Assembly: GCF_010672525.1 (NCBI RefSeq) | Contig: NZ_JAAHGH010000001.1 | Location: forward strand, 259,097-323,096 | DNA from: Okeania sp. SIO2B3 | Lineage (GTDB): Bacteria > Cyanobacteriota > Cyanobacteriia > Cyanobacteriales > Microcoleaceae | Length of the DNA: 64,000 nucleotides | Direction: 5' to 3' | Shown here: positions 13,266 to 58,948 of the stretch, one piece after another | How positions within the stretch are numbered: position 1 is the stretch's first letter | How the letters are laid out: every line of letters begins with the position of its first letter | The notes under the pieces: generated by a model | Told to the model about the DNA's origin: nothing | The model's input: only the letters and a program-made list of their open reading frames with translations | Database searches by the model: none | Program-made: the position numbers and the translations under genes

Positions 13266-13296
13266 AAAAAATCCGACGGTATTAACTACCGTCGGA
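13266..13296 (-). terminator. Rho-independent terminator of the RHH gene
   Basis: Minus-strand stem TCCGACGGTA/TACCGTCGGA with a five-base loop, followed by six T bases, starting four bases after the stop codon at 13300. It closes the transcript of the RHH and coiled-coil frames and supports both belonging to one gene. Confidence 0.85.
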
Positions 13297-13299
13297 CTT

Positions 13300-13485
13300 T
13301 TATTCTTCTTCGGTGTGATGCTGGGGCGACCCTAATACTTCTTGTTCTAGTGCAACAAGTCTTTCTTCAAATATTTGAGTGAACTGTTTGTTTTCGTCTA
13401 GCCTTTGTTCAAGTCTGCCACGATGCGCCCCTACATATTCATAGAAAGCCTCTTTTAACAGTTCCAACTGGCTCGCTAGTTTTTT
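13300..13485 (-). CDS. Coiled-coil extension read by likely -1 frameshift
   Basis: In the -1 frame from the slippery site the reading continues LASQLELLKEAFYEYVGAHR and then an acidic coiled coil (DENKQFTQIFEERLVALEQE) to the stop at 13300. It lacks a convincing own ATG; a TTG within QLELLKEAF is the only weak option, although the AAGGAGG before the ATG of EAMLKN could also serve internal initiation in the other frame. The codon pattern and residue bias are protein-like only after the slip site, not before it. Fusion to the RHH domain by frameshift is the simplest reading; a sequencing indel is the alternative. Confidence 0.55.
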   Translation of the reverse strand, partial: KKLASQLELLKEAFYEYVGAHRGRLEQRLDENKQFTQIFEERLVALEQEVLGSPQHHTEEE

Positions 13486-13670
13486 AGCATGGCCTCCTTC
13501 TCTGTTAATGGTGATGGATTTACTTTTTCCCTGACCAACCGTTCCAGCATTTCGCTCCGACTGACCTGCTCCTCCTTCCTTAGTTTGTCCAGGTAGCTCA
13601 TCGCTGTCTTGGTCAGGGACACACCTGTCTTTACCTTGAGTTCTCCGTACTTCTGATGCTCTGTTTTCAT
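13476..13670 (-). CDS. Ribbon-helix-helix DNA-binding regulator
   Basis: 64 aa from ATG 13670, with ribosome site GAGGA. The sequence ELKVKTGVSLTKTAMSYLDK, then LRKEEQVSRSEMLERLVREK, fits the ribbon-helix-helix fold of CopG/ParG type. The frame ends in a TAG preceded directly by A AAA AAC, a -1 slippery heptamer (13479-13485), with AAGGAGG seven bases before it and a possible stem behind it. A -1 shift would add 59 residues of coiled coil and give 123 aa. Operators TACCATG repeats lie upstream (13755-13795). Likely an autoregulating partition or copy-control regulator of the element. Confidence 0.7.
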   Translation of the reverse strand: MKTEHQKYGELKVKTGVSLTKTAMSYLDKLRKEEQVSRSEMLERLVREKVNPSPLTEKEAMLKN

Positions 13671-13754
13671 TTCCTCTATTGGTTTTGATACTCATTGTAA
13701 CACCATCCATGCTTTGTAACACCATTTATACTTTTGACACTAGAGTTATTGAGT

Positions 13755-13795
13755 TACCATGTTGACATGGTATATTTATTGAGTTACCATGTCAA
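13755..13795. promoter_or_regulatory. Operator repeats between divergent RHH gene and main operon
   Basis: Half-sites TACCATG (13755-13761), CATGGTA (13766-13772) and TACCATG (13785-13791); TTGACATGGTA at 13762-13772 is the exact inverse of TACCATGTCAA at 13785-13795. ATTGAGTTACCATGT occurs twice directly. Such multiple short half-sites suit a ribbon-helix-helix repressor acting on both the minus-strand RHH gene and the plus-strand operon at 13967. The rest of the 13726-13966 gap holds a stem GGGGCT/AGCCCC at 13924-13949 in the presumed leader. Confidence 0.65.
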
Positions 13796-18659: not shown

Positions 18660-18772
18660 TAGCCCTTGGTCAGAAATGGGCTTTTGTTCCCTATGAATTT
18701 CTTGGGCTATCAATTAAGAGCGCAGAAGATGAAATGGGCTTTTGTGCCCCAAAAGATTCATGCGCTCTTTTT
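18658..18772 (+). ncRNA. Twin stem-loops 5' of the IS110-like gene (candidate bridge-type RNA or terminators)
   Basis: Hairpin 1: GATAGCCC/GGGCTATC (18658-18665, 18704-18711) with inner GGG/CCC and an AGAAAT/ATTTCT helix. Hairpin 2: GAGCGCA/TGCGCTC (18718-18724, 18761-18767) with inner GGGC/GCCC, then five T bases. Both hold the same core, AAATGGGCTTTTGT followed by T or G and CCC. Outer arms differ. This double internal-loop plan resembles the paired guide loops of IS110 bridge RNAs, but hairpin 2 also fits a plain terminator. Confidence 0.4.
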
Positions 18773-18792
18773 ATAATTATACTTATTTTTAT

Positions 18793-19980
18793 ATGCCAAA
18801 AGTCTTGGGTTTTGATGTTTGTAGAGGAAAGATAGTTTGTTGCTTGTTAGACAAGAGACCCCAAAAAGTCAGCAAGTATTATTTGGAAAATAATAAATAT
18901 TATCACATTGAAAATAATCAATCAGGAGTAGAACTGTTGAAAGTCTTATCTCCTGATTTTGCGGTAGGTGAACCTACGGGGATTAAGTATTTAAAATTCT
19001 GGGAAAAATGGTTGGCAAAAATTGGCTGTGAAGTTTCTTTAATTCCTAATCAAGCTCTTCCTTCTTACAGACAATTTTTAGGTTTGCCAGACAAAGATGA
19101 TGAGGCTGATGCTTTGGCGTTGGCTTGTTATTGGTTCGATTATTCTGATAACCCTAGAAAGTTTGTTTCGCGGAAGGACTCTGATATTAATGTTTTGAGA
19201 GAGTTGATTTTTCGTAGGATATTCCATGAAGAATCAGCTACCAAATATATCAATGTAGTTCATCAAGATTTAGGTTATGAATTTCCCGAAGTTTCTACAG
19301 TTAAATCGCCAAGGAGAATTTTGAAATCTCCTGCTGTTTTTTGGCGCTGGTTAGCAGATCCTGAAATAGAGTTGAGTCGATATGACGATTTATATGCAGA
19401 TTCCTGTGGATTTGGTTTGTCAGTTTTTACTGAATTTAATGCTGATATTGTTTGCCGACTTGGCGAGCATTGTAAAATTATCGAACAACAGATTGATAGG
19501 ATTTTATTAAAAAATAAGTTTACTGAGTATATTGAAGTTTTTGAAGAATTTGGATTTGGATTGCCTCATCAGGCAATTTTGTTGTCTCAACTTTACCCAT
19601 TAGAGAGATTTTATGGCCCAGACGGAAAACCGGAGGTAATTTATTCTGTTGGCAAAAATTCTGGAAAGCTAACCAAGAAGCCTTTGAGTTTACGTAGAGT
19701 TAGAAAAATTTTAGGTGTTGCCCCTACTCGTGATTGGAGTGGGGGGAAGCGGAGGCATAAAAAAGGCGGAAGCGATTTATGCAGATTAAGCTTGTGGCAG
19801 TGGAGTTTTGTTAGGATTGAGCCTGAGCGATCGAGATTAAAAAATGAAGTAGGGGATTATTTGCACGGTATTTATTTGAGCGAGAAACAATCGGGTAAAC
19901 CGATCGCTAAAGTTAGGCGGAAAGTGTGGGCCAAGGCTGTGGAAATTATGTTTAATAAATTAGTAGATGCACTAAGATGA
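18793..19980 (+). CDS. IS110-like DEDD recombinase/transposase
   Basis: 395 aa from ATG 18793. The N-terminal RuvC-like domain opens with VLGFDVCRGKIVCC (first Asp), has VGEPTG (Glu) and DKDDEADALALA (Asp pair), giving the DEDD order of IS110. The C-terminal Tnp20-type part shows LGVAPTRDWSGGKRRHKKGG, whose Ser-Gly-Gly-Lys matches the catalytic-serine region of IS110 enzymes, and ends with VWAKAVEIMFNKLVDAL. IS110 enzymes use a structured non-coding RNA from the element end. This one sits inside an ordered operon, so it may be a domesticated recombinase rather than a free IS. Confidence 0.7.
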   Translation: MPKVLGFDVCRGKIVCCLLDKRPQKVSKYYLENNKYYHIENNQSGVELLKVLSPDFAVGEPTGIKYLKFWEKWLAKIGCEVSLIPNQALPSYRQFLGLPDKDDEADALALACYWFDYSDNPRKFVSRKDSDINVLRELIFRRIFHEESATKYINVVHQDLGYEFPEVSTVKSPRRILKSPAVFWRWLADPEIELSRYDDLYADSCGFGLSVFTEFNADIVCRLGEHCKIIEQQIDRILLKNKFTEYIEVFEEFGFGLPHQAILLSQLYPLERFYGPDGKPEVIYSVGKNSGKLTKKPLSLRRVRKILGVAPTRDWSGGKRRHKKGGSDLCRLSLWQWSFVRIEPERSRLKNEVGDYLHGIYLSEKQSGKPIAKVRRKVWAKAVEIMFNKLVDALR

Positions 19981-58112: not shown

Positions 58113-58379
58113 ATGACTATTATTCTTGATAATTTAGAGCCAGAAATCCTGGAAAAATTACAGAATCAAGCTTTAAATAACGGTAGGACTTTAACAGAGG
58201 AGATTCAAGTTATTTTGACGAAAGAATTAGCAAATAAAACAATTAAAACTCCTGAAGAATTAGGATGGAGTAGAGGTTTCTTTGAGAGAACGGCTGGTTC
58301 TTGTGCAGATGACCCTATTGTAATTGATAATGGAGGCATTGATGAAAGTTTAGATGATAGTGTGCAAGAATGTTTCTGA
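58113..58379 (+). CDS. FitA-like antitoxin
   Basis: 88 aa from ATG 58113, ribosome site AAGGAGG. The N-terminal part (IILDNLEPEILEKLQNQALN, then NGRTLTEEIQVILTKEL) is a ribbon-helix-helix of the FitA type, and the C-terminus (SRGFFERTAGSCADDP) is the flexible toxin-binding tail. It should bind and neutralise the PIN toxin downstream and repress its own promoter. Confidence 0.8.
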   Translation: MTIILDNLEPEILEKLQNQALNNGRTLTEEIQVILTKELANKTIKTPEELGWSRGFFERTAGSCADDPIVIDNGGIDESLDDSVQECF

Positions 58380-58537: not shown

Positions 58538-58948
58538 ATGAGGTATTTACTAGACACTAATGTAATTGTTAGGTATTTGAATCGGCGCTCTACTCTAATC
58601 AGAGAAAGACTAAAGCAAATAGCTGTTAAGGATGTGTTTGTTTGCTCTGTCGTCAAAGCTGAGTTATTTTATGGTGCAAATAAAAGTAATAATCCTGCCC
58701 AAACATTATTAAGACAAAAGGAGTTTTTGTCAGAATTTATTTCGCTTGATTTTGATGATAAATCAGCGGAAGTTTATGGCATAATTCGAGCAAATTTAGA
58801 GAAAAAAGGGACTCCTGTAGGGAGTAATGATTTACAAATTGCTGCCATAGCAATGGCAAATAATTTAACTTTAGTTACTCATAATACTAGGGAATTTGAA
58901 CGAATTGACGGGCTAATTTATGAGGACTGGGAAGAGGAGAGGGAGTGA
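58538..58948 (+). CDS. vapC: PIN-domain toxin (VapC/FitB family)
   Basis: 136 aa from ATG 58538. PIN acidic residues are in place: LLDTNVIVRYL (Asp), VKAELFYGA (Glu), GSNDLQIAAIA (Asp) and the C-terminal THNTREFERIDGL (Asp/Glu region). It is a Mg-dependent ribonuclease that cuts RNA when the antitoxin is lost. No strong ribosome site is seen before the ATG, perhaps because the repeat insertion separated it from its partner. Confidence 0.88.
   Translation: MRYLLDTNVIVRYLNRRSTLIRERLKQIAVKDVFVCSVVKAELFYGANKSNNPAQTLLRQKEFLSEFISLDFDDKSAEVYGIIRANLEKKGTPVGSNDLQIAAIAMANNLTLVTHNTREFERIDGLIYEDWEEERE

Follow-up and report, generated by a model that had tools for sequence, protein, structure and literature searches.

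A conserved -1 frame junction in cyanobacterial RHH regulator genes that points to programmed frameshifting combined with an upstream start

In the 64,000-nucleotide stretch of DNA analyzed here (the window), a short RHH regulator gene is followed in frame -1 by a helical tail, and this architecture is conserved in a family of cyanobacterial genes. On the sequence evidence, programmed -1 frameshifting at a heptamer at the junction probably yields an RHH-helix fusion in addition to the RHH protein, and a frame -1 start located 5' of the RHH gene is likely to yield a leader-helix protein.

The regulator (CopG/Arc-type, 64 aa) is encoded in frame 0 on the minus strand at 13476..13670. The 64-aa protein matches Pfam RHH_1 with an E-value of 4.8e-6 and a score of 26.8 bits, above the cut-off of 20.5, and, in PDB profile comparison, CopG, Rv0298 and NikR with E-values of 7e-5 to 0.04; its single-sequence AlphaFold2 model has a pLDDT of 76. 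Read on the minus strand, the gene extends from ATG (13670) to GAG AAG GAG GCC ATG CTA AAA AAC TAG (13476). The frame-0 stop TAG (13478-13476) follows immediately 3' of the slip heptamer A AAA AAC (13479..13485), which was recognized from the sequence and from comparison within the clade, and the Shine-Dalgarno-like AAGGAGG (13493..13499; anti-SD pairing energy -11.0) lies 7 nt 5' of the heptamer. From the heptamer onward, frame -1 encodes the tail (13300..13485, minus strand), which is conserved, is matched by the tail profile and is predicted to be one long helix; it adds 59 residues past the heptamer and ends with TAA at 13302-13300. An intrinsic-terminator-like palindromic stem is located 3-4 nt past this stop (13272..13296, minus strand); the palindrome was listed on the plus strand by the scan, and TTTTTT trails the stem on the minus strand. 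The slip site directly before TAG, the AAGGAGG seven bases upstream of it and the 59-residue extension ending near a terminator had all been described in a first-pass annotation of this DNA, and the sequence bears them out.

The open frame -1 reaches far beyond the tail in the upstream direction. The full -1 ORF (13300..13725, minus strand) comprises 141 aa from the ATG at 13725, a leader overprinted on the RHH gene and then the helix, with more in-frame ATGs at 13710 and 13695. The latter lies 25 nt 5' of the RHH ATG, and no strong SD sequence was seen by eye in front of it. In the AlphaFold2 model of the -1 ORF, the residues before 78 have a pLDDT of about 42-58, indicating a disordered leader, and residues 78-131 form one helix with a pLDDT of about 90-96 that starts at the slip site. 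The first-pass annotation had the tail reached by a frameshift; the -1 junction is there, but the annotation overlooked that frame -1 is open from 13725, so that a frameshift is not strictly needed. With a start of its own, this open frame is another way to reach the tail and probably gives a third product, likely the disordered leader joined to the helix.

When 59 relatives were searched, the hypothetical fusion being the query, the two halves were found in adjacent frames in other genomes and in paralogues. Wider searches detected the tail in two groups of genomes: in 56 of 217 from one family, which named loci show to comprise Nostoc, Calothrix, Tolypothrix, Anabaena and relatives, and in 40 of 388 from the order; the genome sets overlap between searches, and the loci, fetched by profile match, are a non-random sample. 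A scan of genome contigs with the -1 ORF of the window as query found no relative, and one with a closer alignment of Nostocaceae tails as query found 15 loci, Calothrix sp. PCC 7716 being among the carriers. Named plasmids, phages and viral contigs yielded no tail, and blastn of the whole window against plasmids gave no match. A total of 166 RHH-tail pairs were extracted by script from the fetched loci, 121 of them with unique DNA, and clustering at about 70% identity gave a nonredundant set of 72 genes.

Relative to the RHH gene, the tail lies in frame -1 in 120 of the 121 unique cyanobacterial pairs, in frame +1 in none and in the same frame in one. The frame -1 statistics exclude the in-frame pair as well as row L002, which was misregistered. 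The 120 also exclude 17 tail matches for which no RHH was detected, and 12 of these were inspected by eye: most have a diverged RHH frame with the end LGK or LGE, L130, L158 and L198 appear broken, and the junction of L134 has no listed heptamer in phase. The first-pass annotation had proposed looking among homologues for a form fused in a single frame. Such a form exists, once among the unique pairs (L033/L003), and reads TTA AAA AAA CTA, with TTA AAA AAC TA in its two tandem neighbours. This locus (L033, G004:C42:43000-47000) holds three tandem paralogues; in the middle copy RHH and tail are fused and frame -1 is no longer open.

In 119 rows out of 120, the heptamer at the junction belongs to one of a small number of slip-type classes. 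These are GGGAAAA (68), GGGGGAA (29), GGAAAAG (6), AAAAAAT (4) and AAAAAAC (4), and more rarely GGGGGAG, GGGAAAG and GGCAAAG (2 each), ACGAAAG (1) and GGGAAAC (1). The row misregistered by the script, L002, truly has AAAAAAC, which brings A AAA AAC/T to 9 instead of 8. The place of the heptamer relative to the tail is identical across classes; A AAA AAC/T is typical of the clade of the window, and G GGA AAA or G GGG GAA is found elsewhere. At the other codon positions of the nonredundant RHH genes (4015 positions in 72 genes), X XXA AAN or X XXT TTN in phase occurs just 9 times. The first-pass annotation had regarded its reading as open to refutation by homologues with only the short form and an unconserved slip site; the heptamer is conserved in the family. 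The G GGG GAA/G rows (29+2 of 120) do not have a canonical X XXY YYZ heptamer, and at G GGG GAA full re-pairing is limited to the P-site Gly tRNA. A AAA AAC is a weak slip site in E. coli.

The coding signal changes frame at the same place. Among 77 pairs of moderate divergence, differences are distributed over the frame-0 codon positions as 482/319/959 upstream of the heptamer and as 242/1141/547 downstream of it. The substitution periodicity thus flips from frame 0 to frame -1 at the heptamer, with third positions accounting for 959 of 1760 differences before it (frame 0) and for 1141 of 1930 after it (frame -1), and the heptamer positions themselves are nearly invariant. When the 72 nonredundant genes are anchored at the site, frame 0 has Leu at codon -1 in 69 and Leu, Ile or Val at codon -2 in most, where the frame -1 residues are variable; past the site, frame -1 has conserved Ile/Val/Leu at +2, Leu at +3, Leu at +6 and Leu/Ile at +9. 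A hydrophobic pattern conserved through the join is expected if the joined protein is made.

Frame -1 is kept free of stops through the RHH gene. The 72 genes contain 6 stops in this frame against 113.8 +- 7.8 expected from within-gene synonymous-codon shuffles, and 66 of them have none at all against 14 expected; stops in frame +1 are not reduced (433 vs 391 expected). The depletion is confined to the three stop trinucleotides across codon boundaries (6 vs 113), other trinucleotides starting with T being undepleted. Control RHH genes with no tail have 133 -1 stops against 151.3 +- 7.6 expected, with no comparable depletion. In a side observation, 13 of 39 control RHH genes with no detected tail are free of -1 stops (3.6 expected), and it is possible that undetected tails occur among them.

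Freedom from stops extends only as far up as the RHH start; further upstream, stops are back to background. Of 71 genes, 60 have an in-frame -1 ATG, GTG or TTG 4-34 nt 5' of the RHH start, at a distance of 13 nt in 28 genes and of 16 nt in 14, L041 having been dropped from this count since no start lies near its profile match; a comparable start codon in frame +1 is found in 17 of 71. Of the 11 genes with no near -1 start, several have an RHH start placed too far downstream by the script. The median SD pairing is -4.55 at the upstream -1 start vs -2.2 at the RHH start. In the 14 named intact Nostocaceae loci the upstream start is exactly 13 nt from the RHH start in 13 and 10 nt in the other, and in the clade of the window it lies 22-31 nt before the RHH ATG.

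These features bear on the main rival explanation, that of two overlapping genes and no frameshift, in which the RHH gene is nested in an independent -1 ORF whose C-terminus is the tail. It would account for the avoidance of stops along the entire RHH gene, with its limit just above the upstream start, and for the in-frame start codon with an SD-like sequence in most members, regularly spaced in the Nostocaceae. We nevertheless consider it unlikely. Stop freedom in the overprinted part goes beyond chance, but amino-acid constraint of the kind expected of overlapping genes is not found there: in the 72 genes no amino-acid conservation was seen in frame -1 5' of the heptamer, and in the 77 pairs the rate of change at frame-0 third positions of the RHH part (0.31-0.34) matches that at third positions of the tail (0.30-0.34). 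Moreover, the tail is kept despite a -1 stop inside the RHH gene in at least five nonredundant genes (L161, L204, L207, L209, L213 and one gene of L201). An overlapping ORF alone is therefore insufficient, because of the switch of conservation from one frame to the other exactly at the heptamer, the natural RHH-tail fusion and the members with -1 stops in the RHH gene. Slipping alone is insufficient as well, because the stop avoidance and the upstream start remain. As frame -1 is passable before the heptamer but its amino acids are unconstrained, the simplest reading is that ribosomes started upstream must reach the helix.

Translational coupling, in which reinitiation after the RHH frame would occur at a start codon of the tail near the stop, is very improbable. 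The frame-0 stop lies 0-1 codons past the junction in 65 of 120 rows, as coupling would have it, and at most 15 codons past it in all others except the misregistered L002; a TTG is present at +7 in 10 of 72 genes and also in the window. But the conserved helix starts at the heptamer, ahead of such codons, and reinitiation was rejected because 38 of the 72 nonredundant genes have no -1 ATG, GTG or TTG from 10 codons before to 15 codons after the site.

Slippage of RNA polymerase on the A run, by which an added A would fuse the frames in the transcript, has equally little probability. The window has six A and the fused paralogue seven, but six A is short for efficient polymerase slippage. Slippage was rejected as a general cause, since most of the family has G GGA AAA or G GGG GAA with no long homopolymer. 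A sequencing error or a decayed gene in the window is hardly credible, although a single-base indel would join the frames, and indel, error and decay were rejected because the -1 architecture recurs in all but one of the unique pairs from many genomes, never as +1, with the tail under selection in frame -1.

Preferring programmed -1 frameshifting together with the upstream start, we consider the possible stimulators of the slip. In the 72 nonredundant genes, GGAG is found exactly 11 nt 5' of the heptamer in 15 and 14 nt in 9, and the SD pairing energy of the family, -4.87 vs -4.03 in synonymous shuffles, shows a modest excess. For the window, dnaX-type SD stimulation had been proposed in the first-pass annotation. 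The SD-like AAGGAGG is present, but its spacing of 7 nt is closer than the family peaks at 11 and 14 nt; the SD-like stimulator of dnaX has a spacing of 10 nt. The annotation had also placed a stem just 3' of the slip site, which finds no support: downstream structure in the window is not significant (z between +0.7 and -0.8 over 40-100 nt) and in the family it is weak (mean z -0.66 vs -0.27 in an upstream control stretch). A downstream stem was rejected as stimulator. A downstream stem or pseudoknot is not required in every known case of -1 frameshifting. The broader proposal of one gene giving a 64-aa and a 123-aa form by a -1 slip gains strong comparative support from the frame relation of the pairs, the heptamer, the periodicity flip and the fusion, and needs amending with respect to the stem, the SD spacing and the open -1 frame.

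We infer that ribosomes starting at the RHH ATG would produce the short DNA-binding protein (64 aa in the window), a fraction of them slipping -1 at the heptamer, with the aid of the SD-like sequence in part of the family, and producing the RHH domain with the long C-terminal helix (123 aa in the window). Starts in frame -1 just 5' of the RHH start would give the disordered leader with the same helix. Judged by RHH repressors whose C-terminus is an oligomerisation helix, the long form probably forms oligomers or shows cooperative binding to operators. The slip would then set the ratio of two binding modes, those of the short and the long form, and the leader-helix, which has no DNA-binding domain, could titrate the long form via the helix. 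We give an even chance to the reading that about 400 nt make three proteins (RHH, RHH-helix and leader-helix) from two modules by two starts and one slip. In this three-protein reading the sole role of the leader would be to carry ribosomes to the helix, the -1 frame being open and its amino acids free, and the three forms would be a built-in switch of a mobile element, consisting of a binder, a cooperative binder and a titrating partner.

Among known systems, the phage P22 Mnt repressor has an RHH domain followed by a C-terminal oligomerisation helix and forms tetramers. The window family shares the RHH domain with Mnt and NikR/CopG, and its predicted C-terminal helix may correspond to that of Mnt, but those proteins are encoded in a single frame, and the tail of the window family had no sequence match to Mnt in PDB profile comparison. 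Bacillus subtilis cdd reportedly undergoes -1 frameshifting at CGA AAG; the junction heptamer of one RHH family member (L128) is A CGA AAG, but the cdd gene is unrelated, and most RHH members have other heptamers. The cro gene of phage A2, a lysogeny-switch regulator, is said to have a frameshift product, as proposed here, but A2 Cro is an HTH protein. To our knowledge, frameshifting is rarely documented in bacterial DNA-binding regulators.

Bacterial -1 programmed frameshifting of the dnaX and IS3 types is treated in a review (PMC5009743). The RHH family resembles these in the slip heptamer, a candidate upstream SD-like stimulator (in part of the family), the frame-0 stop at or after the site and a long form that the slip would make; it differs in having no supported downstream stem, in its G GGG GAA sites and in a -1 frame that is open upstream with its own start. 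The same review describes FseA of a Mesorhizobium ICE, in which msi172 and msi171 are joined by a +1 frameshift (PMC5009743). As proposed for the RHH gene, the frameshift fuses two reading frames to give a transcription regulator carried by a mobile element, but the shift is +1, the product is an excision activator and the protein families are others. A literature search, including passages of Antonov 2013 (PMC3711429) and Atkins 2016 (PMC5009743), found no paper on frameshifting in RHH regulators. If the proposed reading is true, frameshifting is a trait of this whole RHH family, with interchangeable slip sites and many copies per genome. Frameshifting alone would not predict a -1 frame open upstream of the slip site, and the combination is a clean, testable case of stop avoidance with no amino-acid constraint and of two close starts in different frames. 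Standard annotation picks one frame or the other, and the long regulator is thereby missed.

Upstream of the gene, the window contains two operator-like 22-nt direct repeats, 30 nt apart (13741..13792), overlapped by divergent sigma-70-like promoters (13795-13767, minus strand; 13762-13790, plus strand), and a 19-nt direct repeat pair (TTGTAACACCAT...; 13695..13732) between promoter and start. The window and, as judged by eye and uncounted, some other loci have the promoters in divergent placement. Direct repeats of at least 10 nt lie upstream of 35% of 71 genes vs 9% in a control stretch; as candidate RHH operators, such repeats are only suggestive. As a separate observation, an inverted pair, TTGACATGGTA / TACCATGTCAA, occurs at 13755-13795 of the window, overlapping with the divergent promoter-like sites.

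Many loci of the family contain integrase-like, IS110-like transposase, primase-like and collagen-like genes, and when 16-18 kb surroundings were compared, 9 of 17 genomes had a member of the IS110-like family next to the RHH gene. In the window, an IS110-like DEDD transposase-like gene related to those near RHH genes is located at 18742-19980 on the plus strand. In one genome (G018), an element exceeding 8 kb that carries the RHH gene together with an IS110-like gene and a short tyrosine integrase is present in at least 12 copies (L234, L235, L236, L253). Most inspected family members are in mobile-element-like surroundings on cyanobacterial chromosomes, which suggests that the RHH-tail family are regulators of mobile elements; the IS110-like gene could be the recombinase of elements with the RHH gene.

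Several Nostocaceae loci encode, 3' of the RHH gene, tail-fibre-like proteins of 700-900 aa with collagen-like and alanine-zipper sequences (L242:11799-13907 and relatives). Elsewhere in the window, the ORF pair at 58113-58379 and 58538-58948 (plus strand) has, by eye, the look of a VapBC-type toxin-antitoxin system. Many genomes also have RHH-like matches within ORFs that are about 500-2000 aa long (G016:C23, G028:C46, G019:C1 and others).
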